Shown here: piece after piece, positions 18,190 to 37,777 of the stretch
Numbering within the stretch: the first letter of the stretch is position 1
How the letters are laid out: every line of letters begins with the position of its first letter
Virus record (IMG/VR): IMGVR_UViG_3300030060_005621
Coordinates: 1-37,777 of that record
Length of the DNA stretch: 37,777 bases
Strand: one strand, 5' to 3'
Origin: a virus
Made by a program: the position numbers and the translations under genes
Notes under the pieces: generated by a model
Seen by the model: only the letters and a program-made list of their open reading frames with translations
What the model was told of the DNA's origin: nothing
The model's database searches: none

Positions 18190-18207
18190 TTTATTTATTA
18201 AGGATTA
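18190..18207 (-). promoter_or_regulatory. T4-type late promoter (18-nt repeat) for gp8
   Basis: The core AATAAATA lies at 18192-18199 and ends 20 nt before the gp8 ATG. The surrounding 18 nt (TAATCCTTAATAAATAAA on the minus strand) are identical to the promoter in front of gp25. The first TAA of this repeat is the stop codon of the giant gp7-like gene. Confidence 0.75.
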
Positions 18208-21200
18208 ACTTGAGGTTTTAAAATTTTTAAATTTTAAAGCTTTAGATCTTCTAACAATTGCTCCAGTGGAAATTCCACCAACACCTTTGCTAGTATAAGC
18301 TGAGTAAGCAGAACTTTCTGATCTTGATCCTAAACTAATCTTACCCCAACTATAATCACCAAAATAATTACCAGTATGGATACCAGTTCCACTGAAACTT
18401 GGCCAATCACCATCCCAAGAGAATTTATTTGATATATTAACAAATACTCTATTAAGATGAGTTGTGCCTATCCCCACACCTGTAGTACCAACACCCGTAG
18501 CAGATTGAACTATTTCATACTTATTAACCACATAAACATTATCAACAAATTGAGTTCCAATTCCTATTGTTCCTCCACCATTATCGGTAGAAGTCATAGA
18601 AGTGCTAGATGATCCAACTGTTGAATTTGAAACAACGAAGAAATCACCAGTATTAATTCCACTAATAGTTACTGCAGTTCCAGTAATATTAGAATCTCTT
18701 AAATCAGAGGTAAGAGGAATAAACAAATCAAATATTAATTGAGTTCCTATTCCAGATGTTGTTGTAGTACCAAATCCAACAATAATTCCAGAATCACCTT
18801 GATAAGTATCAATTTTATTTTCCTCTTCAGACCATGTTGGAGGACTTATAAGAACCATTGGTGGATTAGATGAAGTATATCCAGCACCAACACTTGTAAT
18901 TGCAATTCCAGTAATAGTTCCTGCGGCACTAATTATAGGAGTTCCAAATGCTCTTGTAGATGTTGTGACTACACCAACTTCTGTATCTCCAATAGATGTA
19001 CTTGCAAAACTTACCGTAGCAGTACTATATCCAACTCCTCCATCAGAAATAATAACTGAAGTAATAGTTCCAGCAGCTGAAACTAAAGCAGTGCCAGCAG
19101 CACCAGTCTTATTCTCTTGAGAAATAAATTTAACTTTCTTTTGGAATGAGAAATCTGAAGCAGTAGGTGAAACTTCATTAACTTCATCATATGGATCAAA
19201 GAAAGGTCTTAATCTTTCAACATAAACTATGGTTGATCCTATTCCTACAGATTTAATCATATAAGAATATGGATTAATGACAGGTTCATAAATTTCCCTA
19301 TCTTTTCCTATTTCTATTTCATTAATAATTTTATCTTCAGTTTGTCTGCATAATGTGATAGGTCTCTTCAAATTAGCATCTTCAGTATTTCCTGGTCCAT
19401 AATAAGGATCAGTTGATACTCTATCTGTACCATCAATACTAAGAGGAACTCTTTCAGTTTCTTCCAACCAACTTGCTTGTGTAGAGAAACGATCAATCGT
19501 CAATTCATCACCAGGTTGAACTGGTTCGGCAACTTCCCTATCAACAACATCCTGATCTCCTGTTCCCTTATAGAAGAGAATCTGTATTGTATCACCTGTT
19601 TTAGGTGCTTCAGTAAAGGTTATTACACTTCCACCAGGAAACTCATAACCTATTCCAGGAACTTGAGGAATGTTATTAACAAAGACTAATAATAATTCTT
19701 GCTCAACAATCTTAGATCCTCTTTTAGCTTTAATTGAAAGAGTATCTCCATTAACAGTTAGAGGGAAATCAACTGTGCTTCCATCAATATATCTCTCAAC
19801 ATTATCAACAACTTGTAATTGACCAAGAGACCAACCAGTAAATTCATCATTAAATACTTTTTCAATTTCAATATAAGATTCAGTAAAGGTCTGACTTGGA
19901 TCTGTTGGGATACCAGTTGTTCCTCCAATAGGGAATGTTAATCTTTGCCCATTACCATATCCACTTCCTGTATTAGTAATAGTAAATGTAATTATACTAG
20001 ATCCTTGACCAACCACTACATCTGCCTTAGCTCCTGTTCCAATTCCACTAGAAGAAGAAGTATAAGTTAAAGCAATACCAGAATATGATAATGGATCATC
20101 AATTACTACTTCATTATATCCATTAACAACTCCACCTCTAGCATAAATGTGATGTCTAGTTGATATACCAGTATTAGTTTCAAATGTCTTACTATCAACT
20201 ACACGTAAAATTTCACTTCCCTTGATAGCAGTATCAAACTGACTTGCAGAATTATTACTTACTCTAGGAGCTATAATTGCAGATTGAACCGAACCAAATC
20301 CAACATAATGACTAAGAACTGTTGATATGCCAACATTAACCTCAAATTGGGTAGTGCTATTAACAGCAGTAACATTAGTTCCTGTATAGTAAGGATCTGG
20401 TTTTCTTGGATACTTATGGACAGAAGCATAACTGTCTTTAGAACATCTAAATGATAGAGACTCTGTAGAAAGTTTTATACTGGTTCCAGTTGTTAGACCA
20501 TGTAAAGCACCACCACTACCAAGTGTCATCGTTAGAATTCCAGATGAAGCACTGTATACAGCAGTAGAAATATTGTAATTAACTATTGTTGATACACCCA
20601 CATTAATAGAGAATGTATTTGTAGTAGCAGCAGTGATTGCAGTGCTTCCATAACCAACAATAGGATCAGTTGCACGAGGATATGGATGTAATGATGAATA
20701 ATCATCCATAGAACATCTAAAGACTAAACTACTTTGAGCAACAGAAACATAGTTTGAAGTAGTAAGTCCATGCGATGCTAGTGTAAATGTTACTATACCA
20801 CTTGGACCATCATAAGTAGCATTTGTTGGAGTATATCCTAATCCAGAAGATACCTCAGTAATAGCACCACCACTAATACTTACAAATCTATGATCATAGT
20901 CTCCTCCACTAATTACAGCATTATCTGATGCACTTACGAATTGATGGGTGGATTGATCACTTACACCAGAGTATCCAACATCAATTGTTATTGTAGTATT
21001 AGATGTACCAACAATTGAAATTGAAGTATTATATGCTCTATCCTCACCTCTTGGATAATAATGAATACTTGATCCATTATCAAGAGCACATGTAAATCCT
21101 AATCCACTAAAGATTACAACACTCTTCTGACCAGTGGTTGAGAATCCATGAGCACCAACTGTGGTGACAGTCATAATACCAGTTGCTGTTCCATAACCTA

Positions 21201-24200
21201 CGGTAGCAATTCCGAGAGCTGGGGAGTAATCACATGTAAAGGCAATTCCTGATAATTTTACTTCATCTCCAACATTTAAATTATGAATAGTTTGTGTAGT
21301 GACTGTAGTTAATCCAGTTACTGAAGTATATCCAACATTTGCTATCTTTCTAGGTGAATAGAAAAGATGATCTGTATTAGTAATAGCAATTCCTGTAATA
21401 TTTCCAGTAGTAATCTGTGCTGTTCCTATTCCAATTACATTTGTACCAACACGACTTAGAGTTTGTATACCAACATTAACTGTTTGAATACCTGCCCTAT
21501 AACCAGATCCAGTATTACCAATACTAATAGATTTAACAGTTCCTCCAGCAGATACTGTAACAGTACCACCTGCTGCAACTAAAGGTTGATATCCAAAACC
21601 TTCACTAGATCCAACAGAGACAATTACACCACCCATTGGTAAAGTTCCAACATCAGGTGATCCAGAAACAGAACTTCCAGTACCAGTAAACAGAATAGTT
21701 GTGACTCCAACTGCAGAATCTTCTTCTAAGAAATAATCATTAAGACTATTAGTTACTTTAATGGTTTGGAATACATCATTAACAAGAACTATAGCTCCAT
21801 CAGTGGTAAGACCTGAAACATTAGATCCTTCTGATTGTAAAACAAAGTCAGATTTTATGCCAGTAAACTGATCCGAAATACTATCAAAAATATAATTTCT
21901 ATAGTATGTCTCACTTGTAGTATCTGGCACTCCAGAACGCATAAACATTCTTCCATTAAAACTAGATCCTGTAGCAATACCTGTCCAATCTCTAGAATCA
22001 GGTGGATTAGTATCAGTGCTTAAAGGAACATTTCCATATGGTGCTTCTACAAAATTAAGTGTATTATCAACAATATTATAATTACCAATTACTTTAGTGA
22101 CTAAAGTTCCTGTGCCATATCCAGCTAAAGCAGTACCCATCCAAGGTCTCTTAACTCTGATGAGATTATCATTTCCACCCTGACCAATAGAATCTAATCT
22201 TATTATCTCACTACCAATCTTAACTATATCACCACCATAGAATGATGTAATACCAGCAAATTCTATAGTATCAGATGTTGTAAGTACTTGATCAGCCAAA
22301 TGAGTTGTCACTGATGTTGCAACAACAGGAGATTGAATAATATTATCTAAAGAAACTAGAACTTTTGAATTTTGACCAATAGCATTAAAAGCATGTGAGG
22401 TTCCTATACCAACACTTGATAATTCTATTGCTGTTGGAACTGTTTTTAATGCGTTTTCTGCAGTTGTTGCTAATTTGATTGTATTATCATTAACCTTAAT
22501 TGCAAATACGTCTGCAGGAAGTTTATCAGTAGTACCAATTCCAACAAAACTAGTAGATGCAATACCAACTGACATAGTATATCCAGTACCAGGATTACTA
22601 TAAACTAGTTGTTGACCAGTTACAAAGAAGTGATTAGATAAAGTAATTGTATCATTTGAAGTATCAATTGTAGAACTATCACTACCATCAAAAGGTTTTC
22701 TAAAGATAGGATCTGTTCTATGAGATAATCCAAATGATCTTAAAATAGTATTTTCAGTTCCAGTGTATTCACCAAATCCAGCTTCAATAAGTCCATTTTC
22801 AAAATCTATTTGATTTTTACTATCATCATTAATTCTTAATTGATTTGAAAATACATTTGTTTGAACGTCAATATTTGCATTTGGAGTGTATGTAATTGCT
22901 ACTGTTCCTGCAGCAGATACCTTAGTTCCAATTGTACCCAATCCAGAAGAAGCATCAGCTACGTCAGATGTCACAGAAGCCCATTCAACATCATATGTTT
23001 CTGTGGTATCACCCGAAACATAATCAGTGAGAACAAGATATTCTTGGAATTCAAATTGCTGGTTTGTTGCATCAGTTATTTGAATAAAGCAGTACGCACC
23101 TTCATATGTACCACCATCAAATTCCGCAATGGTAGTAATTCCAGGAGAGGCAGCGGCAGAAATAGCAGTTGTTTGGGATTGTAATCTAGCATGATTTAAA
23201 GTAAGAGTTCCGATACCTGTAGTAGTGGAATCTGCCAAACCAACTAAGATTGTATTAATTGCACCAGTGGTTCCTATACCAACATCGGCATTTGGAATAA
23301 AATCAACTTTTAATGAAGACCCATCAATATATCCTCTATAAGTACCAAACCCATCAGTAGCATTAGCACCGCTAATATTAAGATTTGAAGTTAATTGACC
23401 GTATTCCAATAATTCAACATCTGTACCATTATGAACAATATTAAACTGAGTAAACTCATATTCTTCAAGACTAATATCGGGAGTAATTTCAACCATTACC
23501 TTAGCCGATCTGTAAGTACTCGCAATTCCCACTATGGTAGTAGTTCCTACACCAACAGCAAGAGTAATACTTTCAGTATCAATAATAGAAGGACCAATAG
23601 AAGTTGTTGCCGTGCTTAAAACAGATTCATCCAAATTCCAAGAAAGACTAGAAATCCAATAATCGTTAACACTAAATTTTGTAGGATAGAAGTTTAATTT
23701 ACCTTCACTACCAGAAACAGCAAAATCAAAATCTCCCTGATCGTAAATACTTTCTACTCTACCATATTGATTAATATATCCTTGAGTGCTGTCATGAAGG
23801 AGATCAACAATCATCAATTGTCTTTGAGCAGTATATCTTTTATCTCTTACTAAAATAAAATATTTTAATGCTCTTCTATCTGTTAAAGTCCATGTGTTAA
23901 CAGTAGTAAATCTTGTAGATCTTGGATTACTATTAAAAGTTCCACTAAAATCATCTATTGATACTACTCTATTGCCTATAGACTCAGAGTAATCTTGCAA
24001 AATTCTACTAGTAAATGTAATTTCATCAGATACTATATTTTTACCTACAGTAAGTGAATTTTCGGTTACAATATCAAAATCATGAACACAATTTAAATTA
24101 CCAAACCCTACTGCATCAACAACAACATCAATTTGATCAGTGGTCACACCAACTTTAGCAGAAGCAGTTGATTCTAATTGATAATCGGCAAATTTCTTAA

Positions 24201-27200
24201 ATCCCAATGTATGATTTAACGTAGAAACTGGATCATCCCAAGTTTCAAAATCAATCCTTGAACTTAAAGAATATGATAAATTCTGATAGTAAAGACTATC
24301 TTGAACTCTTTGCATATTTGCATTAAAGAATCCAGAATCAGTTTCCCATCCTTTTTGTACTTTAGAAGATGCACCTAATTTAATATAAGCATCAAAAGAT
24401 CTAATAGATGATGCTATTCCTTCTGTTCTAGTAGTTTCTCCTTTTATAAGATCATTTACTATAAAGTCATTATCAGCACCAGAGATTCTAAGTATTCCAC
24501 TATTTGGATTCCAAGTATCTACTGTTCCAGTAGCACTACTAATTGAACCAGTGACGACTTCTCCATGAATATAATCATTTGATTTTTTAAACTTAATATC
24601 AAAAATAGGAAATGCTCTTTCAGGAATAACTCTTCCTGATGAATTATTAACATCAAACGAACCAGGAGTTAATGAGGGGGCTAAATCACTAGTAAAATAA
24701 TCACTTAAGTTATATGTAATAGTTCCAATTCCACCATAATTTTCATCAACACTAGTAAGAGTGAAAAGTTTGTAATCATATTGATCAGAATTGTATCCTC
24801 TACCTGTTGTACCAACTCCAACACTAATACCCTCAATTAAAACATTATCTCCACTCGCAAATGGGAAAGTGGTTGTAGTGCTAAATCCTTGATTTAATGT
24901 AACTGTTACGTCTTTGGTAATAGTGTTAAATCCTACGGTACTAATTCCTACACCATTACTATTATGAATTGGAATAATTGTTGGTGTTGAATCACTAATT
25001 CCAAAAGTATTTTTTAAAATTTCTACATTAGAATTTCCTAATGTATATCTCAAATCAACGTCATCAACTAATTTGTTAGTTTTTCCATCAAGAATTATAA
25101 GATCTGGAGCATTAAGATATCCCCTTCCAAAAGAACTTACTCCTACAGACTCAAGAGACATATATGAATCAATTTTAACAATTTGATCTAATATGGCATC
25201 AGGCGTTAAAGTTGTGTCTGAAGGGAAATCATACCCAATATCAATAATACCAGTATTACAGATTCTTCCCACAGAAGTGCTCAGTCCCTCAACAATTGCA
25301 TTATCTCCAACATTACTTGTAATTGTTGTTATTCCAGGAAGAGAGTAGTAATTTGTTCCAGGAGTTCTTATTTCAAATTCTTTAATTGCTCCATATGCTG
25401 TAGGACTATCTGTTTCGTATGATAGATTGGATGTAGTTCCATAAGAAACTCTTTCTGGATATTGAGGAATAGTATATGTAAACTGATTTGTAGCAGCTAC
25501 AGTTATTTTTTGTTTACCATTATACAAACTATTAAATAACTGCAATTCACTTCCAGATAAGATTTCAGGATCTACAGAAATTTCTTTTTTTAATTCTGGA
25601 AGATTAGATTCAAAAATAGGATCTAAGGTGTAATATAAAACATCGGGAACATCATCATTAACATCCAATCTAAGTTCGGCAGTAGTGGTCACACCAACTG
25701 TCCCTGCTCTTGTAATATTAAAAGTATCTGTTTGTAATGAACTATCCCAAATTTGAGTAAAGTTTTTATCTTTATAGAAATTTAATCTAAAAGCAGGATA
25801 ATTTGTTGATTGATTAACATATCCCAAAGATGAATCTGAAAGATCAAATATAGCTGTAGAATTTTTATATACTTTCAATGCTGGATTTATTGGATTAATA
25901 GTTCCTGCAGATGTATCAGCAATTCCAACTATTTCTGGTTTTGAATCAGTTGAATCATAATATGTTTTTGAAAGTTTAAAAGTATCATTATCTACTTTTA
26001 CAATATAATAAATTCCATTATCATCTAAACCATCTACAGGAGTAGATGCTGTATGAATAATTTTATCTCCAGTTTCAAATCCATGATTAGTGATAGTCAA
26101 AGAATTAGTTGAAGTATTAACTCCAGTAGCTGCAAATGATTTTGGATTAACTACAATTCTTCTATTGTAATCATTATACTTAACACTAAAGTTAGTAGGT
26201 ACTCCTGGATTTACATCAATATAAACATTTTCATTATTCAACAAACCATGAGTTTGTGCAGTTGAGACAGTTACTGTATTTTTTTGGATTGATCCAGTTA
26301 TGACATCATAATTTGTCTTAAAGCTATGATATACACCAGTTCCAACTCCAGAGAAGAAGACTGTTGTAGAGTCCCTCTGTGTGCTTGCAATGCCCACAAA
26401 AGTGCCTGTAGTACCTAAACCTACCCTACATGTGGATATACCAATAAAGTCCTCTGTTATAACCGCAGCAAAAAGAGTTTGTCCATTAATAAGAGTGGTT
26501 ATTCCTGCTGCTGCACCTGCTGCACCATCTTGTCTAATATTAATACCTTCACCAGCATTTGGAGAATATGTTAACTTATCTCCTGTTTTCAATCCATGTT
26601 TTGGAAGATACATTTCTTTTGTCTTCACAAAAAGTTCAGACAATCCAATTCCAGGATTAGAGAATACAATTGTACTACCAATACCAACTCCAGATATAGT
26701 ACCCAAACCTACGGATTCTACTGGGTTGAAATATATTTGTTTATTTAATCTAAAGTCATATGTTGAATTAAATCCAGCACTAATAGTAAGTTTTCTTGGA
26801 TCTTCAATAACTTCTGAAGTTATTGTGTGAGAAACTCCTGTAACTCCATTAAATGCTCTAAGAACTCTTATTCTAGAATTGCTTACTTCTACATTTAATA
26901 CTTTAACCTGTTCTGTTCCAATTCCAAGAATATCATTAGATCTAATTTTTGGAAAAGATAGATCACCAGCAACATTAATATGAGTGACAATACCTGTTGA
27001 TCCATCAGTTCCAATTGCAACTGCTGTTGTGCCAATACCAGTTAAAATTAATCTATTGCTACTAATACCTGCAATATAAGATCCTTCAATTTTTGATGAA
27101 GTTGTTGATAAACCTAAGATAGAAATAGTATTAGTATTAATCCAATTATGAGGATTGTCTGCAAGAATCGTATAAGATCCTTTTCTATCAGAAGGATATA

Positions 27201-30200
27201 TTTCAACATTGCTTATTGAACTAGTAGCAACACTTACTGAATTTACTTCTTTACCTAAAATTTTAGAAACAACCGCAGACACTCCAGTTCCACGAGTATT
27301 AACATTATCAAATATTGCCTTATCTCCAATTTGGTAATTACTACCACCTGTTATAATTCCTATATTTTCAACTATTCCTGGTTTAACTGATTTAATCTCT
27401 GCTGTTTGTGATAATTTATCAGGAAGAGAAAAATATGAATAAGAAGTATCACCTTCAATTAAATTATATGGAGCAGTATTTCTACACCAATCAGTATCTT
27501 TAAAATCAAAACTATCTTGATTGGAGAATATATTAAAGTTAAATTCATTAGGAAGTGAATGATAATCCTCACCAATTAAATATGGGAATTTTGGTAATCT
27601 ATAAGAATTAAATTGACCAGAAGATTCAGACCCACCATCACTAACAGTCGCAAAATATGCATAAGTTCCATGTGGATATTGTGGAGTAATACAAAATCTT
27701 CCATTATTTTCATCTAGAACAGTATCATCATCAAGTTGCTTATAAGTATAATCTTCAACAAAAAATCCTCCAGGAAAAGCACTTAATGATGGTCTATTTT
27801 CTTTGATTGAAGATTCTTCAACATATCCAGATTTCATCTGAACTACTGTTCCACCATCTTTTTTAATATATCCATATGGACCATAAATTGGATTTCCATC
27901 ATATGCCCATCCAATTATTGGAGAATGGTTATCAGAATTTACTTCTTGTCCATTAAGTCTTCTTAAATCTGGTTCTCCATATAAAGATTTACCTTCTTGA
28001 GTTGTAGAATAAACAGACTCTCTTAATTTTCTAGGAGCATAAAGATGGGTGTATTGAAGTTCAAAGTCTTTATTTAATCCTTTTGTTAAAATTCCATCAT
28101 CATTTGCAATTTGATCACCCAAATATTTCTTTTCAAATAAATTAACAGTCCATTTTTGGATATTAGATCTTACCTTTACATCTGTTCCTGGAACAACAAC
28201 AGAAATAGATGTATTTGGTTTAGTATAACCAGTTCCTTTTTGAATAACATTAACAGAATCTAAAACATATTTTGTCGTGGTTCCTACACCAACTGCAGAA
28301 ACATTTCCATTAAGATCAACTACTTTTAATACTGGTGTCACTACTAAACCAGAACCATCTCCAATAATTTGTAAATTAGGAGGAGCATTATAATTTTTAC
28401 CTTTATTTTCTACTATAACTTCAACAACACTTCCATTACTAATAACAGGACTAAGTTGAGCTTCACTACCAGCCAATAATGTTACTTCAGGTTCTCTAAC
28501 AAAATTTATTATTTCTGATGATCCATATCCAACACCATTTTCGGATAAATGTATTGAAGTAATTTCACCCCTAATTATAGGTTGAATTTTACCCTCAAAA
28601 GTTTCAGATCCTATTGAAGATAATCCAACTTTTCCTGTTAACGTTGCTGTTATAGGTTGATAATTGAAAGTGTGAGTGCCTATACCAATAGATGTTAACG
28701 GTCTGTATTGTTTTGTATTATAATAAAATTCTTGATTGGTAGTTCCCACTCCCACACTTGATAATTTAAAATTATCATCATCAACTTTAGTAATGTAAAA
28801 ATCAGTAGAAGTAGTTAATCCTGAAATTGGAGTTCCATCACAATTATAACTAACAATTTCTCCAGATTCATAATCATGATTTTTAATTTTTATAGTATCT
28901 AAAGCAGTGTTAATACCAACAGGATTACAAGTTCTCTTTTTATTTTGATACCCAGATCCACCAGAAACTATATTAATAGACTCTATGGTTGATTTTGTTT
29001 TAAGAGACTTTATAAATTGTTTACCAACTCCATTAGAAGTTAAGGTAATTGTATTAATTCCAGCAAGAGCACCCGCTTCATCTTTATGCAATCTTACAAT
29101 AGTTCCAGCAGTTCCTACGTGTGAAACAAAATATGTAGAACTAGTTGTCATTCCACCAACAGTTTGTTGGTCATTTGTTACATATATTACTTCTTCGGCA
29201 TTTTTAAATTTATGATATGTTCCAAATCCAATTGTTGATGCTAAAGTTCCTGTTGTTCCAAGTCCAACAAGAGGGTCATTAGAATTAAAAGAAACACTAT
29301 GACTTACTTGTTGCATATTTACAGATACATTAGCACCTGAACCATTACCACCACTAATTTTTATAGTGGGAATTTCTTGATAATCAAAACCAGGATCTAT
29401 AATTCTAATATCTTTTAAAGATCCAGAAACAGCAACAAATCCAGTAGCTCCTGTTCCAACAGAATCTTTAATATGTAAAAAAGGAGGATTAATTACATCA
29501 TAGTTTCTTCCTCCACCCAAAACTTTTATATTTTCTAATTCACCATAAGTAATTTTATCAAATGATTTATAATTTAAAATTTCAACACCATTTATCAATA
29601 TTCCTGTTTTACCAGGATTTGTTGTATTTGTAGATCCATCATTTTCTGGTGGACATACTTCTCTAATTAATTTTTGTGATTTTAAAGTTTTAGTATGAAA
29701 ATCATATGGGATAAGTTTATTGTCAGTGACAATACCAGTCCTAGTATTGTCAGTATCAAGATTTATAAATTTAGAATTATCAATATCAGACCTACTTTTG
29801 GCAAGTTTTAAAGTAGTAGCATTTACTCTATGAACAAAATATAAACCTTCTTTTGCTAAAGAAGATTTTATAACAAAATTATCTAAACTAGTTCCACTAG
29901 TAGGATCTACATAAGATTCATTAACTATTTGAGGAGTATAATAAACAGCATCTCCAGTATAGAATCCATGATCAAAAACTGGGACACCTGAAGGAGTAGT
30001 AGTTGATGAATTTATTATTTCAAATTGATCTCCAGTAAAAGCACCTTCAAATACAATTTCTCCATCATTAACACCTAAAGATTGTCCTTCATATGAAGGA
30101 AGAGATGAGGATGCTACTATAAGTTTATCTTTACTTTTTTCTTTATATACATTCTGAACGTCGGTAGAATAAATTGAAGATTCTTCAAAATTAATTGCAT

Positions 30201-31812
30201 TATTTAATGTAATATTTCTTTGAATTGTAAAAACAGCTGGGGTGTTTTCATAAAAATCTCTAATCTCACCCTGACCTTTTACAATAAAAGATTTTGAATT
30301 TACTATTTGAGAAACAGTAGATTTAGGTAAATCTATACCATCATTACCTTTAAGAACTGCAGTATCCCCTACTCTAAATTGATGATCAACATCCAAATTA
30401 ATTTGATATGTAAAATCAGAAGAATCTTTAAGAGTGTTGCTTTTTACATTATAAGTTGGTGCAATATTATAAAACCAATTACTAAATTTAAATCCAGTAT
30501 CACCAATTCCTAAAGTTTTAATTTTTATAGTATTACCAGACTCATAACCACTATTATGAGATTTATATTTTAAACTCTCAAGTACAGAAGTCAATCTTAC
30601 TTCAATAATTTCATCTTGATCTACAGAAGATCTTCCATATGCAAATGTATTAATACCAACACTTTCTGTAGATGTAATTGTTTTTGCTATTCCTACACCA
30701 AAAAATTGAGTTAAGTTTTTAGATGTATAAGAACTTATTCCAACAGTGCCATCAATATATTTAAAATGCAATTCTCCTGTTGTACCAAATCCAACGGTAG
30801 AATCTACATTAAGAACAGTAGTACCTGCTGATACATTTCCTATTACTTTAGTTCTTGCAGGAACAGAAAAATTACCGTATATTGCACCATCTACTCTAGA
30901 ATCTCTATTATATCCAGCATCTATACTTAACCTATAAAATGTAGTACCTGCACTTACATTAATAGGTTCTACATGAGTTATGGGAGCATATGCCTTTTCA
31001 ATATCATCACCATAAGCATCTTGATATAAAGTTGATAATTCTAAGTTAAGTGGGTCACCTACAATTGGTTCAACTACAAAATCATTTGTAAATTTATAGT
31101 TTGCATTGGATGGTGTAAAAAGAAATTCAGAAGGTCTTATAATTTTTACATTTTCATTATATAAAGCTTTAAATAAAATCTCAAACCCTCTATCAGTACC
31201 CTTACTTAAATAAAAATCTTTTGTTTGTTTTAAAAAGATATTTTGATCTAAATCCGAATCTAATTGTCTTCCCTCAAATCCTGGTGTAATTTGAGTCTTA
31301 GTTTTATATAAAAATTCTTTTAAAAATAAAGTGCTTAAATTTTGAACAGTATCTCCCTTATCATGCTCATCAGCTACTGTGGTTTCAAATACCAATTCTT
31401 CTGGATTAAGAGAACTTTTATAAGAAGTAATTCCACTAAATCCTCTAACACAACCAGTGAATGCAAAAGTAGTTATTCCAGTATATGTAATAATTTCATC
31501 ATTAATTTTTATCAATCCATAAGAATCAGGAAACCCTTCAGTTCCTGTAGGATAATTTTGCATATCCACTTCTATAGTATCACTAGCGATACCCACAGAC
31601 ACTCCCAGTCCTACAGAATGAATAAGATTAGTTAAACTATCAACTTTTACATAATCATCAATATTTTGAGCTAAATCAATTGGACCACCTTGATATTCCT
31701 GTCCTTGATAATATGACTTTAAAAATTCAGCAACTAATGGATATTCGTTCCTTACATAACCAGGTAATTGGTTTTGAACGATGTTATTAAACTTAATTCT
31801 ATTTACTGTCAT
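18205..31812 (-). CDS. 7: Giant baseplate wedge gp7-like protein, 4535 aa
   Basis: This is a single open frame of 4535 codons. The N-terminus (MTVNRIKFNNIVQNQLPGYV) and the ITYTGITTFAFTGCVRGFSG motif (about 108-127) resemble the protein between gp6 and gp8 in marine T4-like phages. Synteny (gp25-gp6-X-gp8) makes it the gp7 equivalent. Near residues 1296-1430 there is a YHYH-type domain (HSPIIGWAYDGNPIYGPYGY, then YPHGTYAYF). At least ten Gly-Tyr beta modules are scattered through it, and residues about 3550-3840 hold three copies of an FxC...YPR...VGxS module. An EVVTGSISSATGTVDTW segment near 2415 matches one in gp14. T4 gp7 is only 1032 aa. I see no frameshift or internal promoter. The wedge role is inferred mainly from position. 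Confidence 0.85.
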   Translation of the reverse strand: MTVNRIKFNNIVQNQLPGYVRNEYPLVAEFLKSYYQGQEYQGGPIDLAQNIDDYVKVDSLTNLIHSVGLGVSVGIASDTIEVDMQNYPTGTEGFPDSYGLIKINDEIITYTGITTFAFTGCVRGFSGITSYKSSLNPEELVFETTVADEHDKGDTVQNLSTLFLKEFLYKTKTQITPGFEGRQLDSDLDQNIFLKQTKDFYLSKGTDRGFEILFKALYNENVKIIRPSEFLFTPSNANYKFTNDFVVEPIVGDPLNLELSTLYQDAYGDDIEKAYAPITHVEPINVSAGTTFYRLSIDAGYNRDSRVDGAIYGNFSVPARTKVIGNVSAGTTVLNVDSTVGFGTTGELHFKYIDGTVGISSYTSKNLTQFFGVGIAKTITSTESVGINTFAYGRSSVDQDEIIEVRLTSVLESLKYKSHNSGYESGNTIKIKTLGIGDTGFKFSNWFYNIAPTYNVKSNTLKDSSDFTYQINLDVDHQFRVGDTAVLKGNDGIDLPKSTVSQIVNSKSFIVKGQGEIRDFYENTPAVFTIQRNITLNNAINFEESSIYSTDVQNVYKEKSKDKLIVASSSLPSYEGQSLGVNDGEIVFEGAFTGDQFEIINSSTTTPSGVPVFDHGFYTGDAVYYTPQIVNESYVDPTSGTSLDNFVIKSSLAKEGLYFVHRVNATTLKLAKSRSDIDNSKFINLDTDNTRTGIVTDNKLIPYDFHTKTLKSQKLIREVCPPENDGSTNTTNPGKTGILINGVEILNYKSFDKITYGELENIKVLGGGRNYDVINPPFLHIKDSVGTGATGFVAVSGSLKDIRIIDPGFDYQEIPTIKISGGNGSGANVSVNMQQVSHSVSFNSNDPLVGLGTTGTLASTIGFGTYHKFKNAEEVIYVTNDQQTVGGMTTSSTYFVSHVGTAGTIVRLHKDEAGALAGINTITLTSNGVGKQFIKSLKTKSTIESINIVSGGSGYQNKKRTCNPVGINTALDTIKIKNHDYESGEIVSYNCDGTPISGLTTSTDFYITKVDDDNFKLSSVGVGTTNQEFYYNTKQYRPLTSIGIGTHTFNYQPITATLTGKVGLSSIGSETFEGKIQPIIRGEITSIHLSENGVGYGSSEIINFVREPEVTLLAGSEAQLSPVISNGSVVEVIVENKGKNYNAPPNLQIIGDGSGLVVTPVLKVVDLNGNVSAVGVGTTTKYVLDSVNVIQKGTGYTKPNTSISVVVPGTDVKVRSNIQKWTVNLFEKKYLGDQIANDDGILTKGLNKDFELQYTHLYAPRKLRESVYSTTQEGKSLYGEPDLRRLNGQEVNSDNHSPIIGWAYDGNPIYGPYGYIKKDGGTVVQMKSGYVEESSIKENRPSLSAFPGGFFVEDYTYKQLDDDTVLDENNGRFCITPQYPHGTYAYFATVSDGGSESSGQFNSYRLPKFPYLIGEDYHSLPNEFNFNIFSNQDSFDFKDTDWCRNTAPYNLIEGDTSYSYFSLPDKLSQTAEIKSVKPGIVENIGIITGGSNYQIGDKAIFDNVNTRGTGVSAVVSKILGKEVNSVSVATSSISNVEIYPSDRKGSYTILADNPHNWINTNTISILGLSTTSSKIEGSYIAGISSNRLILTGIGTTAVAIGTDGSTGIVTHINVAGDLSFPKIRSNDILGIGTEQVKVLNVEVSNSRIRVLRAFNGVTGVSHTITSEVIEDPRKLTISAGFNSTYDFRLNKQIYFNPVESVGLGTISGVGIGSTIVFSNPGIGLSELFVKTKEMYLPKHGLKTGDKLTYSPNAGEGINIRQDGAAGAAAGITTLINGQTLFAAVITEDFIGISTCRVGLGTTGTFVGIASTQRDSTTVFFSGVGTGVYHSFKTNYDVITGSIQKNTVTVSTAQTHGLLNNENVYIDVNPGVPTNFSVKYNDYNRRIVVNPKSFAATGVNTSTNSLTITNHGFETGDKIIHTASTPVDGLDDNGIYYIVKVDNDTFKLSKTYYDSTDSKPEIVGIADTSAGTINPINPALKVYKNSTAIFDLSDSSLGYVNQSTNYPAFRLNFYKDKNFTQIWDSSLQTDTFNITRAGTVGVTTTAELRLDVNDDVPDVLYYTLDPIFESNLPELKKEISVDPEILSGSELQLFNSLYNGKQKITVAATNQFTYTIPQYPERVSYGTTSNLSYETDSPTAYGAIKEFEIRTPGTNYYSLPGITTITSNVGDNAIVEGLSTSVGRICNTGIIDIGYDFPSDTTLTPDAILDQIVKIDSYMSLESVGVSSFGRGYLNAPDLIILDGKTNKLVDDVDLRYTLGNSNVEILKNTFGISDSTPTIIPIHNSNGVGISTVGFNTITKDVTVTLNQGFSTTTTFPFASGDNVLIEGISVGVGTTGRGYNSDQYDYKLFTLTSVDENYGGIGTITYNLSDYFTSDLAPSLTPGSFDVNNSSGRVIPERAFPIFDIKFKKSNDYIHGEVVTGSISSATGTVDTWNPNSGILRISGADNDFIVNDLIKGETTRTEGIASSIRSFDAYIKLGASSKVQKGWETDSGFFNANMQRVQDSLYYQNLSYSLSSRIDFETWDDPVSTLNHTLGFKKFADYQLESTASAKVGVTTDQIDVVVDAVGFGNLNCVHDFDIVTENSLTVGKNIVSDEITFTSRILQDYSESIGNRVVSIDDFSGTFNSNPRSTRFTTVNTWTLTDRRALKYFILVRDKRYTAQRQLMIVDLLHDSTQGYINQYGRVESIYDQGDFDFAVSGSEGKLNFYPTKFSVNDYWISSLSWNLDESVLSTATTSIGPSIIDTESITLAVGVGTTTIVGIASTYRSAKVMVEITPDISLEEYEFTQFNIVHNGTDVELLEYGQLTSNLNISGANATDGFGTYRGYIDGSSLKVDFIPNADVGIGTTGAINTILVGLADSTTTGIGTLTLNHARLQSQTTAISAAASPGITTIAEFDGGTYEGAYCFIQITDATNQQFEFQEYLVLTDYVSGDTTETYDVEWASVTSDVADASSGLGTIGTKVSAAGTVAITYTPNANIDVQTNVFSNQLRINDDSKNQIDFENGLIEAGFGEYTGTENTILRSFGLSHRTDPIFRKPFDGSDSSTIDTSNDTITLSNHFFVTGQQLVYSNPGTGYTMSVGIASTSFVGIGTTDKLPADVFAIKVNDNTIKLATTAENALKTVPTAIELSSVGIGTSHAFNAIGQNSKVLVSLDNIIQSPVVATSVTTHLADQVLTTSDTIEFAGITSFYGGDIVKIGSEIIRLDSIGQGGNDNLIRVKRPWMGTALAGYGTGTLVTKVIGNYNIVDNTLNFVEAPYGNVPLSTDTNPPDSRDWTGIATGSSFNGRMFMRSGVPDTTSETYYRNYIFDSISDQFTGIKSDFVLQSEGSNVSGLTTDGAIVLVNDVFQTIKVTNSLNDYFLEEDSAVGVTTILFTGTGSSVSGSPDVGTLPMGGVIVSVGSSEGFGYQPLVAAGGTVTVSAGGTVKSISIGNTGSGYRAGIQTVNVGIQTLSRVGTNVIGIGTAQITTGNITGIAITNTDHLFYSPRKIANVGYTSVTGLTTVTTQTIHNLNVGDEVKLSGIAFTCDYSPALGIATVGYGTATGIMTVTTVGAHGFSTTGQKSVVIFSGLGFTCALDNGSSIHYYPRGEDRAYNTSISIVGTSNTTITIDVGYSGVSDQSTHQFVSASDNAVISGGDYDHRFVSISGGAITEVSSGLGYTPTNATYDGPSGIVTFTLASHGLTTSNYVSVAQSSLVFRCSMDDYSSLHPYPRATDPIVGYGSTAITAATTNTFSINVGVSTIVNYNISTAVYSASSGILTMTLGSGGALHGLTTGTSIKLSTESLSFRCSKDSYASVHKYPRKPDPYYTGTNVTAVNSTTQFEVNVGISTVLSHYVGFGSVQSAIIAPRVSNNSASQFDTAIKGSEILRVVDSKTFETNTGISTRHHIYARGGVVNGYNEVVIDDPLSYSGIALTYTSSSSGIGTGAKADVVVGQGSSIITFTITNTGSGYGNGQRLTFPIGGTTGIPTDPSQTFTESYIEIEKVFNDEFTGWSLGQLQVVDNVERYIDGSTVDFPLTVNGDTLSIKAKRGSKIVEQELLLVFVNNIPQVPGIGYEFPGGSVITFTEAPKTGDTIQILFYKGTGDQDVVDREVAEPVQPGDELTIDRFSTQASWLEETERVPLSIDGTDRVSTDPYYGPGNTEDANLKRPITLCRQTEDKIINEIEIGKDREIYEPVINPYSYMIKSVGIGSTIVYVERLRPFFDPYDEVNEVSPTASDFSFQKKVKFISQENKTGAAGTALVSAAGTITSVIISDGGVGYSTATVSFASTSIGDTEVGVVTTSTRAFGTPIISAAGTITGIAITSVGAGYTSSNPPMVLISPPTWSEEENKIDTYQGDSGIIVGFGTTTTSGIGTQLIFDLFIPLTSDLRDSNITGTAVTISGINTGDFFVVSNSTVGSSSTSMTSTDNGGGTIGIGTQFVDNVYVVNKYEIVQSATGVGTTGVGIGTTHLNRVFVNISNKFSWDGDWPSFSGTGIHTGNYFGDYSWGKISLGSRSESSAYSAYTSKGVGGISTGAIVRRSKALKFKNFKTSS

Positions 31813-34503: not shown

Positions 34504-34650
34504 CTATTTTCCTTGTCCTCTGTACTTCTTTTTTGCTTTATTGCGAGAAGTTGCGGATAGGAGTGTGTTAGCCGAGCGTCCTTGACGAGTTTTTTTGGGC
34601 ATCGAGACGAGTTGGACGGTTCCCCATGCTCCTGTAGTTGCCTTTGCCAT
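34504..34650 (-). CDS. Small basic protein, 48 aa
   Basis: The protein is MAKATTGAWGTVQLVSMPKK followed by TRQGRSANTLLSATSRNKAK and KKYRGQGK. It has about 11 Lys/Arg and few acidic residues, so it could bind nucleic acid. The start overlaps the stop of the glycosyltransferase gene by one base (TAATG), so the two are translationally coupled and share the strong promoter at 35441-35469. A strong terminator follows 3 nt after the stop. I recall proteins ending in a similar KKYRGQG tail in cyanophages, but function is unknown. An internal Met (residue 17, MPKKTRQGRS) is a possible alternative start. Confidence 0.8.
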   Translation of the reverse strand: MAKATTGAWGTVQLVSMPKKTRQGRSANTLLSATSRNKAKKKYRGQGK

Positions 34651-35417
34651 TAAATTACCCTCATTTTCTCATGACCTACACGAATGCGAGGGTCGCACCA
34701 TGTCTCCACACCTGCTTCTTTAGCATCTAGGCAGAACGACACATCCTCACCACACATATCCTGCACTCCACCAGATTCAAAGACTTGCATCTTAGGAGCA
34801 AACCAAGGATATTCCATATTCTCGAAGACACCCTTCTTAATTAACACCCAACCGAAACCAGTATAGTCAACTGTGAAAGGTTTGTTGCGTTTGCCCATTG
34901 ACTCAACAGTCTCATGATTCATAACTCCCCCATTTTTGCGGAAGTCATCTTCTTCTAACCAATGAGCAACTGAGGTAGTATGTCCATCTTCTGTAGCATA
35001 CCAACCTGCTGCGATCTCTCTTTCGTCACCTTCAGCAGGAACTGCTAGATCGCAGAGTTGCCAGAACTTCTCAGGAGTAAAGACAATATCATTATCAATC
35101 CAGAGTTGATAGTCATATTCTAGTTTACCATCCCAAGGTATTTGATTAGGACCACGAAGAACATTTGCACCAAGACACTTACATCTTGCAAAGTTCACCA
35201 TAGAAGAATAATCTTGTGATATCTGTATACTCATTCCAGACTGCACCATATCAAAGCACAGTTGTACAAAATTCTTTAAAAAGGTATAAGAACAACCTCT
35301 GCCAGGTAGACAGAATACAATTGTCTTACCCTTCATTCTTGCTTTAATAGCAGGAATATCCCAACTAGGTGCTGCCTTAGTCGGTGCTTTGGCCTTAACA
35401 GTAAATCCTTTTGCCAT
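34650..35417 (-). CDS. GT-A-like glycosyltransferase
   Basis: This 255-residue protein looks like a GT-A fold glycosyltransferase. After a basic N-terminal 30 residues comes KTIVFCLPGRGCSY (31-44). DYQLWIDNDIVF (102-113) gives a D108-N-D110 DxD-type metal and nucleotide-sugar site. GEDVSFC (223-229) resembles the acceptor/catalytic ED motif, and a late His (H249 in RIRVGHEK) is often the last metal ligand. No signal peptide or membrane helix is visible, so it should be cytosolic. The substrate is unknown; modification of phage DNA, virion or host envelope are all possible. It has a perfect consensus sigma70 promoter, with a predicted leader of about 17 nt, so strong early expression is expected. 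Confidence 0.75.
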   Translation of the reverse strand: MAKGFTVKAKAPTKAAPSWDIPAIKARMKGKTIVFCLPGRGCSYTFLKNFVQLCFDMVQSGMSIQISQDYSSMVNFARCKCLGANVLRGPNQIPWDGKLEYDYQLWIDNDIVFTPEKFWQLCDLAVPAEGDEREIAAGWYATEDGHTTSVAHWLEEDDFRKNGGVMNHETVESMGKRNKPFTVDYTGFGWVLIKKGVFENMEYPWFAPKMQVFESGGVQDMCGEDVSFCLDAKEAGVETWCDPRIRVGHEKMRVI

Positions 35418-36602: not shown

Positions 36603-36841
36603 TAATAAGAATCTCCTCCTTGAGGTTCTGCGAATATTCTCACAGGTCCACCAACACCTACTGTGGGGGCAGCTCTCTCATAACTTAAATCATCTGCGTC
36701 GTAATCTGTCTTTAACAATCCTACCATGACGTTGAGTAGTTCCCATGTCTCCTCAAATTCGTCTTGTTTTAAATTATGGTACAAGCACCTGTCTTTTGCA
36801 TATATGTGATAAGTTATTATATTTTCCTTTTCGGCACTCAT
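36602..36841 (-). CDS. Conserved-type small protein, 79 aa
   Basis: The protein is MSAEKENIITYHIYAKDRCL followed by YHNLKQDEFEETWELLNVMV and a tail rich in Gly and Pro. The first half looks like a compact alpha/beta fold, with the central acidic helix DEFEETWELLNVMVGLL. I recall proteins with a similar YHIYAKD...LSYE pattern in marine T4-like phages, with no known function. It is the first gene of the operon with the two 2OG oxygenases and is coupled to the first by TAATG. Its mRNA may start at the TTGACA/TAGAAT promoter near 37053-37081, leaving a leader of about 200 nt, or at a weaker nearer promoter. Confidence 0.78.
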   Translation of the reverse strand: MSAEKENIITYHIYAKDRCLYHNLKQDEFEETWELLNVMVGLLKTDYDADDLSYERAAPTVGVGGPVRIFAEPQGGDSY

Positions 36842-37052
36842 TTTTTCTGGGGGATTTTTTTATATAGTAAACCTGAGAAGGTCAAAAAATTTTTTCGGGA
36901 AATTTATATATAGCTCTCGAATTCGGTTCGTTGTAGGTTAGGGACTTTCACTTTTTTATAAACGCAACGCCCGCACCGCAAAATATAACATAGGGGGCAT
37001 AAACACTGTCCTAACTGTCAATAACTCATAAGCACACTAAGTGTATATTATT
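36842..37052. other. Gene-free leader/intergenic region
   Basis: No convincing ORF is present; the longest ATG frame noticed is 14 codons (MPPMLYFAVRALRL). The stretch holds a TATAAATT late-core-like sequence at 36901-36908, an isolated TTGACA at 37016-37021 without a good -10, a GC-rich patch at 36963-36979 and an 11-bp palindrome at 37034-37044 (ACACTAAGTGT). The palindrome lies at the predicted start of transcription of the 37053-37081 promoter and could be an operator. Confidence 0.5.
36859..36885 (-). promoter_or_regulatory. Possible weak sigma70 promoter before the 79-aa gene
   Basis: The minus strand has TTGACC (36880-36885) and TATAAA (36859-36864), but only 15 bp apart, shorter than the usual 16-18. 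It could act as a proximal promoter for the 79-residue gene. The setting is very AT-rich, so confidence is low. Confidence 0.35.
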
Positions 37053-37081
37053 ATTCTACATTATAAAGGGCAGACTGTCAA
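37053..37081 (-). promoter_or_regulatory. Strong sigma70 promoter TTGACA-17-TAGAAT
   Basis: TTGACA (37076-37081) and TAGAAT (37053-37058) are separated by exactly 17 bp. It reads towards the 79-residue protein and the two oxygenases. The -35 box lies in the loop of the hairpin at 37068-37091. Confidence 0.75.
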
Positions 37082-37091
37082 CAACCTGCCC
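37068..37091 (-). terminator. Hairpin after the 41-aa gene, possible leaky terminator
   Basis: GGGCAG and CTGCCC arms of 6 bp flank a 12-nt loop, followed on the minus strand by TTTATAAT. It lies 23 nt after the stop of the 41-residue gene. The T-tract is poor, so termination would be partial. The loop contains the TTGACA of the next promoter. Confidence 0.5.
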
Positions 37092-37114
37092 CTAATCTGT
37101 TTACTAATTGTTAT

Positions 37115-37240
37115 TTAAAGTGCTGTATCTTCCACCTCCACAATATCATCCAAGACTGCCAAAATATCCGCACCATTGTTTGCATTTTCTAGCAAGAATT
37201 CTGCAAAGTTCGGTGATACTCTGTTTACGTAATCTGCCAT
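37115..37240 (-). CDS. Small acidic protein, 41 aa
   Basis: The ORF encodes MADYVNRVSPNFAEFLLENA then NNGADILAVLDDIVEVEDTA and L. It is acidic and largely helical, with two amphipathic helices (about 10-20 and 25-36). The first helix plus NN-turn plus second helix looks like a small helical hairpin. I recall a very similar class of about 40-residue proteins in marine T4-like phages, which supports it as a real gene, but the function is unknown. It follows the 59-residue gene and probably shares the promoter at 37522-37550. No good ribosome-binding site is seen before its ATG, and a stem-loop (37273-37302) lies between the two genes. Confidence 0.7.
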   Translation of the reverse strand: MADYVNRVSPNFAEFLLENANNGADILAVLDDIVEVEDTAL

Positions 37241-37272
37241 AATAAATTGATAAAAACTGTGAGTAAATTAAG

Positions 37273-37302
37273 AGTGTCTGACCCTTACATAAGAGGGACA
37301 CT
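37273..37302 (-). other. Stem-loop between the 59-aa and 41-aa genes
   Basis: AGTGTC and GACACT arms (6 bp) enclose a second stem (CC/GG and CTT/AAG around a 4-nt loop). No T-tract follows, so this is more likely an RNA-processing, stability or translation-control element than a terminator. Confidence 0.5.
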
Positions 37303-37311
37303 TTCGACGCT

Positions 37312-37491
37312 TCAGTTATAATAATCGTAGGGTGAATCTACATCCTCTATGTAACATTCAAGGTTCTCATTCTCTTCTATTTTTAATACTTTTCTCCAGT
37401 CAATCTGTCTTGGATTAAAGTCATCAAGCACGTCTAATTCTAGTGTTATTCTATACTTACTCTTCTGCCCGTAATAGTTAGAAACTGTCAT
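37312..37491 (-). CDS. Small protein, 59 aa
   Basis: The ORF encodes MTVSNYYGQKSKYRITLELD, then VLDDFNPRQIDWRKVLKIEE, then an acidic tail (CYIEDVDSPYDYYN). The pattern is a beta strand, an 'NPRQIDW' helix start, and a second strand, which suggests a compact folded protein rather than a chance frame. I recall proteins with the YRITLELDVLDDFNPRQI pattern in cyanophages. The function is unknown. It lies about 24 nt downstream of the predicted start of a perfect sigma70 promoter, so it should be transcribed strongly and early. No canonical ribosome-binding site is obvious beyond a G-rich stretch (CGGGG) about 10 nt before the ATG. Confidence 0.75.
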   Translation of the reverse strand: MTVSNYYGQKSKYRITLELDVLDDFNPRQIDWRKVLKIEENENLECYIEDVDSPYDYYN

Positions 37492-37521
37492 GGAATTAGA
37501 CCCCGTGGAGTATTACTTTGT

Positions 37522-37550
37522 ATTATACAATCACTGTGGAAAAATGTCAA
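37522..37550 (-). promoter_or_regulatory. Perfect consensus sigma70 promoter with DnaA-box-like spacer
   Basis: The minus strand has TTGACA (37545-37550), a 17-bp spacer and TATAAT (37522-37527). The spacer includes TTTTCCACA (37535-37543), which is the form of DnaA box I recall from Synechococcus elongatus. Transcription would start near 37515 and run into the 59-residue gene. Confidence 0.87.
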
Positions 37551-37569
37551 TAATTACAGTATTATTATG

Positions 37570-37589
37570 TATAAATCTTGACATTTATA
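37570..37589. repeat. Inverted repeat of late-promoter-like cores
   Basis: TATAAAT (37570-37576) and ATTTATA (37583-37589) form a perfect 7-bp inverted repeat around a 6-bp spacer. Each arm equals seven bases of the T4 late core, pointing in opposite directions. Confidence 0.55.
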
Positions 37590-37635
37590 AAATTGTAATA
37601 TCCCTACAAAATATAAACGAGGGTATTGCAATTAA

Positions 37636-37663
37636 ACCGAGTTCGTGTTATACTCTGCTCGGT
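37636..37663. repeat. Inverted repeat ACCGAG/CTCGGT
   Basis: Arms of 6 bp (37636-37641 and 37658-37663) flank a 16-bp spacer. It could be a protein-binding site or a weak hairpin; no T-tract follows on either strand. Confidence 0.4.
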
Positions 37664-37682
37664 AAGATCACTATAAAATCAA

Positions 37683-37762
37683 CACTTTATTTCACATATT
37701 ATCCACACTATATCACAACAATTCCACACGTATTCCACTGCATTACTAACACTTATCCACAC
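37683..37762. repeat. Helically phased array of CACA units with two perfect DnaA boxes
   Basis: CACA (or CACT) begins at 37683, 37693, 37704, 37714, 37725, 37736 and 37758, so units recur every 10-11 bp with one position (37747) degenerate. Most units read as [TA]-T-x-C-CACA. TTATCCACA occurs exactly at 37699-37707 and 37753-37761, and AATTCCACA at 37720-37728. The array lies in a gene-free AT-rich stretch upstream of a perfect promoter. It may be an iteron-like or DnaA-binding control region; function is inferred. Confidence 0.6.
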
Positions 37763-37777
37763 ACTTGTTGAAAAGGT

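Follow-up and report, generated by a model that had tools for sequence, protein, structure and literature searches.

A helically phased, conserved array of host-type DnaA boxes beside an early promoter in T4-like cyanophages, a candidate oriC-like DnaA assembly site

In a 37,777-bp virus fragment, the whole of which was analysed and is here called the window, we found a helically phased array of DnaA boxes that match those of picocyanobacterial replication origins; the right end of the fragment cuts through the array, which related phages retain. Host DnaA very probably binds it in infected cells, and we give an even chance to the array being an oriC-like assembly site for host DnaA that starts, or transcriptionally activates, phage replication. 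DnaA boxes are already known from phage and plasmid origins, that of lambda among them (PMC3985674); their setting in T4-like cyanophages is new, and a literature search with incomplete journal coverage returned no paper on DnaA boxes, or on a phased conserved DnaA array, in these phages.

Gene content places the fragment among the T4-like marine cyanophages (Kyanoviridae): it carries a phrog_438 baseplate wedge protein and has family relatives in synteny, the complete genomes of S-SM2, Bellamy and SynMITS9220M01, all Kyanoviridae, which bears out the T4-like assignment of the initial annotation. At the DNA level the fragment is closest to two marine virus particles, AG-345-E15 (92% over 950 bp) and AG-345-O18. 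Leftward from the array lie a 59-aa gene, small genes, a 2OG-Fe(II) oxygenase, a 255-aa phrog_1574 gene and baseplate wedge genes. The 59-aa gene (37312-37491, minus strand) matches phrog_12516 in PHROGs (1.5e-19), and its protein has 149 relatives among viral contigs; a Pfam search with this protein gave no match, and its AlphaFold model, of low confidence (pTM 0.43), was too weak to be of use. The 255-aa gene (34650-35417, minus strand) is found in more than 80 cyanophage records, and its product is about 70-96% identical across most cyanophages having the gene and weakly glycosyltransferase-like. The start of a 4,535-aa gene (18205-31812, minus strand) weakly matches baseplate wedge sequences, and residues 1290-1390 of its product carry a YHYH domain (PF14240, 3e-21). 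An open reading frame running across the array (37490-37771, plus strand) had no PHROGs match and was treated as spurious, and an Rfam search of 36800-37777 gave no match.

Seven CACA/CACT cores had been described over 80 bp of the array, and all seven are present, at 37683, 37693, 37704, 37714, 37725, 37736 and 37758; their steps of 10, 11, 10, 11, 11 and 22 bp depart from the uniform 10-11 bp first reported only at the last, where one helical turn is skipped. The accompanying view that all cores lie on a single face of the helix is nearly correct, with steps of 11, 21-22 and 32-33 bp. The [CT]CAC cores have a period of 10.8 and a vector strength of 0.99, equalled by none of 615 shuffles of similar core number, so that the periodicity persists against shuffled sequence. 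A peak at 11.25 bp that appeared to conflict with helical phase was settled by an explicit spacing histogram.

Sites were scored with a matrix built, without phage sequence, from 61 oriC sites of 14 low-GC picocyanobacterial genomes, which were chosen by family kinship with Synechococcus WH 5701 as the centre. The four best sites of the 37.8 kb all fall in this region, at 37535, 37753, 37699 and 37766, the last three tied for second place. Two exact TTATCCACA boxes had been noted before and are indeed there, predicted DnaA boxes at 37699-37707 and 37753-37761 (both plus strand); a third exact box had been overlooked, a predicted TTTTCCACA box at 37535-37543 (minus strand), which has the top score of the entire fragment, corresponds exactly to the cyanobacterial DnaA-box consensus (PMC4674748) and is invariant in 18/18 sequences of the fragment's clade. 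The predicted weak box TTTTCAACA at 37766-37774 (minus strand) has one mismatch to TTTTCCACA and forms the outer half of an inverted pair, of which the 37753 box is the strong inner half; apart from a C/A position, it is kept in 18/18 clade sequences. Two putative low-affinity sites lie in the same register, TATTCCACT at 37731-37739 (plus strand, score 9.6) and, 11 bp from it, AATTCCACA at 37720-37728 (plus strand, score 9.5). Two degenerate units complete the row: TATTTCACA at 37688-37696 (plus strand, score 6.3), 11 bp from the 37699 box, and TATATCACA at 37709-37717 (plus strand), which is placed by register alone and falls under the matrix threshold, so that binding there would be a guess. 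With exact and near boxes on both strands the site extends beyond the original 80 bp, and relatives carry two more TTTTCCACA boxes past the cut end of the fragment.

The three exact TTWTCCACA boxes fall within the 286-bp non-coding stretch 37492-37777, and the remaining 37.5 kb of the fragment holds none; shuffling this stretch gave a mean of 0.0165 boxes, and 0/2000 shuffles reached three. For comparison among relatives, 80 viral loci were gathered via the 59-aa protein, of which 60, including the fragment, were left after duplicates and short ends had been removed. Exact boxes number 228 in their 600-bp upstream regions (33.4 kb) and 6 in the 401 kb that flank them, a 457-fold enrichment. 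At least one exact box was found upstream in 57/60 loci, and 3-5 in most, so that the array, which the initial annotation had proposed to look for in close relatives, is conserved there. The AT-rich composition of the fragment (33% G+C) is all that speaks for chance clustering of boxes; set against the 0/2000 shuffles and the 457-fold enrichment, that explanation was rejected, and we regard its probability as negligible.

The initial suggestion of a DnaA-type array fits host DnaA better than could then have been known, since TTTTCCACA is the cyanobacterial consensus and picocyanobacterial dnaN-upstream regions contain the same box family and variants as the phage array. Like the array, the dnaN-adjacent oriC of Synechococcus and Prochlorococcus combines TTTTCCACA with its one-base variants TTTTCAACA and TTATCCACA, and strong with weak sites, in AT-rich surroundings at spacings of about 21 and 32 bp; the cluster thus matches the host DnaA consensus as an oriC-type origin would. 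The array differs in lying in a phage genome with no dnaA or dnaN adjacent, in having close pairs at 11 bp where the host has 9 bp, and in lacking both convincing homology outside the boxes and a conserved CTACTACTA. Contamination by host DNA, or a captured oriC, was discarded: the surrounding genes are phage genes, and blastn matches to host oriC were short and weak (best E 0.001).

Spacing points the same way. Same-strand neighbours in the relatives are 11 bp (58 cases), 21-22 bp (70 cases) or 32-33 bp apart, where fewer than one case per spacing is expected; the counts overstate the evidence, relatives being non-independent, but the period of about 11 bp also appears in 41 loci outside the fragment's clade; in host oriC the same-strand spacings are 9, 20-23 or 30-33 bp. 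The phage spacings are those expected for cooperative growth of a DnaA filament: E. coli DnaA favours box pairs 2 or 3 bp apart, an 11-12 bp step (PMC11317965), and its strong boxes nucleate the filling of weak arrayed sites (PMC4285127). A phage DnaA gene was not found, PF08299 being absent from nine records that included complete genomes, with the control positive in 10/14 genomes; host DnaA is therefore the only known protein for the array sites. Another candidate, that the sites are the operator of a phage-encoded DNA-binding protein with a DnaA-box-like motif, would accord with lineages lacking DnaA boxes, which seem to have other, AAATGTC-type repeats at this place, as if different proteins used the site. 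We consider such an operator improbable, and the phage-repressor site proposed at first less likely than before, because the sites match a matrix derived from host oriC only, the exact cyanobacterial consensus is among them, and their spacing is the one that DnaA prefers.

Within the clade alignment (n=18), box positions are better conserved than other non-coding positions (0.95 versus 0.85; permutation P 0.011). Read toward the gene, the region begins with two facing TTTTCCACA boxes by a terminator-like hairpin, followed by a late-promoter-like AATAAATA motif (in cyanophages the late motif reads NATAAATA; PMC2984593). Next come the inverted pair, the phased array and a conserved inverted repeat, and then AT-rich DNA and the box-containing promoter. 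In almost every clade sequence one half of the inverted pair is of the C type and the other a C-to-A variant, either TTTTCAACA with TGTGGAWAA or TTTTCCACA with TGTTGAWAA, one sequence having TGGGGAAAA; a perfect palindrome was never seen at this pair in the 18 sequences. This one-strong-one-weak arrangement suggests selection for the combination, or against a cruciform. The strong and weak roles (37766-37753 and homologues in L003-L024) are swapped between sub-clades, 9 versus 9.

The inverted repeat CCGAG-N16-CTCGG (37637-37662), with loop TATAACAC and GTGATCTTA ahead of it, is conserved in most relatives, where it stands 147-217 bp before the 59-aa gene in shifting register; its arms show some compensatory changes (CCGAG/CTCGG, GCGAG/CTCGC, GGGGG/CCCCC) and are lost in some lineages. 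The conserved GTGATCTWAGCGAGC...TATAACAC element that holds this repeat stands some 150-215 bp before the 59-aa gene in L003-L089 and recurs in Bellamy and SynMITS9220M01, both box-less.

The strong early promoter that had been placed beside the array is a sigma-70-type TTGACA-17-TATAAT of the 59-aa gene (37522-37550, minus strand) with 12/12 consensus matches, and the TTTTCCACA box at 37535-37543 sits between its hexamers, in the 17-bp spacer. A second strong promoter-like site, TTGACA-17-TAGAAT with 11/12 matches, lies at 37081-37053 (minus strand). The AT-rich stretch at 37541-37600, a weak duplex that resembles an unwinding element, is the fourth least stable distinct 60-mer of the fragment; in the relatives L009, L021 and L085 this upstream region contains the least stable 60-mer of the locus, and the S-SM2 boxes at 58064 and 58085 are directly preceded by a stretch (57975-58034) that ranks as the second least stable 60-mer in the 190-kb genome. 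The weakest DNA of several loci is thus found here, yet promoters are also AT-rich. The weakest 60-mers of S-SM2 (L178, 101652) and SynMITS9220M01 (L187, 95579) are a common AT-rich stretch, which in S-SM2 falls between gp21 and gp22 and contains TATAAATA motifs resembling late promoters.

A box inside a promoter raises the possibility, which we think fairly unlikely, that host DnaA acts as a transcription factor only, repressing or timing the early promoter with the array adding cooperativity and no replication start involved. DnaA is known to regulate transcription (PMC11317965), and the spacer box, within its 12/12 promoter, is unchanged across 18/18 clade sequences. The DnaA-trio-like CTACTACTA motif, moreover, which adjoins the boxes in 14/14 host oriC regions, was not found as a conserved feature of the phage region; within the fragment's clade it occurs in a few members only, inside or adjoining the gene on the upstream side of the array. 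Yet the main array lies about 150 bp upstream of the -35 hexamer, and further boxes in relatives lie 365-390 bp upstream of the 59-aa gene, which exceeds the needs of promoter control; outside the clade, moreover, the spacer box is often missing while the array is retained.

A further reading is titration of host DnaA: as phage copies rise, initiation on the host chromosome would stop, much as with E. coli datA. Box clusters are known to titrate DnaA in E. coli (PMC5835720), and several strong boxes at one spot would be multiplied by phage replication. Like a datA-type cluster, the array consists of DnaA boxes gathered outside oriC; it differs in its regular helical spacing and promoter overlap, and titration needs neither the fixed 11/21/32-bp spacing, nor conservation of register, nor adjacency to a promoter. 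Titration would also favour many scattered boxes, whereas the whole S-SM2 genome has only 4 exact ones, and we hold it to be improbable as well. One S-SM2 box, at 101562, lies inside gp21 and was disregarded, as was a box cluster of S-PM2 (19231-19264) within tRNA genes.

For the oriC-like reading we envisage that host DnaA would bind the strong TTTTCCACA and TTATCCACA boxes first and that the weaker sites at 11 bp would then fill, giving an ordered oligomer by very AT-rich DNA and a perfect host-type early promoter. Such an oligomer might help to open the phage DNA, upon which the T4-type replisome of the phage itself (gp41/gp59/gp43) would start, or it might activate transcription through the region, comparable to DnaA at the lambda origin. 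That the outcome is replication initiation and not gene control alone strikes us as evenly balanced. An origin, or a transcription-activated one of the lambda type, would be expected to show just this combination, in which an ordered row of strong and weak boxes occupies a single fixed position together with AT-rich DNA and a strong promoter.

T4 origins (oriE, oriF and others) depend on R-loops or promoters, and no use of DnaA is known for them; P1-type plasmid origins carry DnaA boxes. The array shares with T4 origins the company of T4-like replisome genes (gp59 in S-SM2) and a promoter by AT-rich DNA. Boxes near the lambda origin and pO/pR, beside a phage promoter, are bound by host DnaA, which stimulates transcriptional activation of the origin (PMC3985674). 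Lambda differs in requiring the iterons of its own O protein and in having few boxes, and the cyanophage array is larger, helically phased and part of a T4-like phage. According to PMC2984593, T4 has several origins, and work cited there predicted a single theta origin for cyanophage Syn9. In favour of the oriC-like reading we counted the enrichment of exact boxes in relatives and their conservation, the ranking by the host matrix, the spacing, the weak S-SM2 60-mer before its boxes, the absence of a phage DnaA gene, and the cases of Syn9 and lambda. Against the oriC-like reading we counted the missing CTACTACTA, the box-less relatives and the presence in S-SM2, which bears the array, of its own gp59 helicase loader; loss of gp59 was accordingly dropped as a reason for needing DnaA. 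GC skew over the whole S-SM2 and SynMITS9220M01 genomes is monotonic because their genes lie mostly on one strand, and is uninformative on the origin.

By sequence comparison the array is specific to certain lineages, added to a control region that is itself conserved, and is not a general feature of T4-like cyanophages. In Bellamy and SynMITS9220M01 the neighbouring element and the promoter are present with no exact box there, and no exact box was found upstream of the syntenic gene in S-SSM7, ACG-2014f, S-CAM9, S-T4, S-SKS1, P-SSM2 or S-TIM5; because several relatives thus do without exact boxes, T4-like cyanophages have no general need of DnaA. Among wider cyanophages, a box cluster upstream of the syntenic 255-aa gene is confined to a minority: of 29 loci whose sequence reaches 2.4 kb or more upstream of it, about one-fifth have at least two exact boxes there. 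Seven other viral contigs (L242, L248, L250, L276, L280, L301 and L305) have 5-8 exact boxes in inverted pairs without the conserved element; a phrog_1574 gene lies near the boxes in those tested (L242, L250, L280 and L305), with gp6 as well in L305, so that additional T4-like lineages may have the box cluster in synteny. In P-TIM68 (NC_028955), the 645-bp gap upstream of the phrog_1574 gene (57650-58296) contains an inverted TTTTCCACA pair at 58194/58208 and a diverged element at 57965.

For the start of cyanophage replication, a DnaA-box array that is conserved and fixed in position provides an exact candidate origin. With rather less than an even chance, we propose that some T4-like cyanophages acquired an oriC-like replicator, in which host DnaA on the phased array would hand opened DNA to the phage replisome and replication would be tied to the host's diel, light-driven supply of DnaA; dnaA transcription in Prochlorococcus is diel and drops under UV (PMC2921402). 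If this is true, infection would be linked to the host cell cycle, and a phage with a full T4-type replisome would still rely on the host initiator.

Fifteen of 81 related contigs end close to the conserved element, no more than 290 bp upstream of the 59-aa gene: this fragment and L004, L013, L018, L020, L023, L031, L033, L034, L042, L045, L047, L060, L077 and L078. These ends are not natural; they are probably assembly breaks from the near-identical DNA of co-occurring phages.
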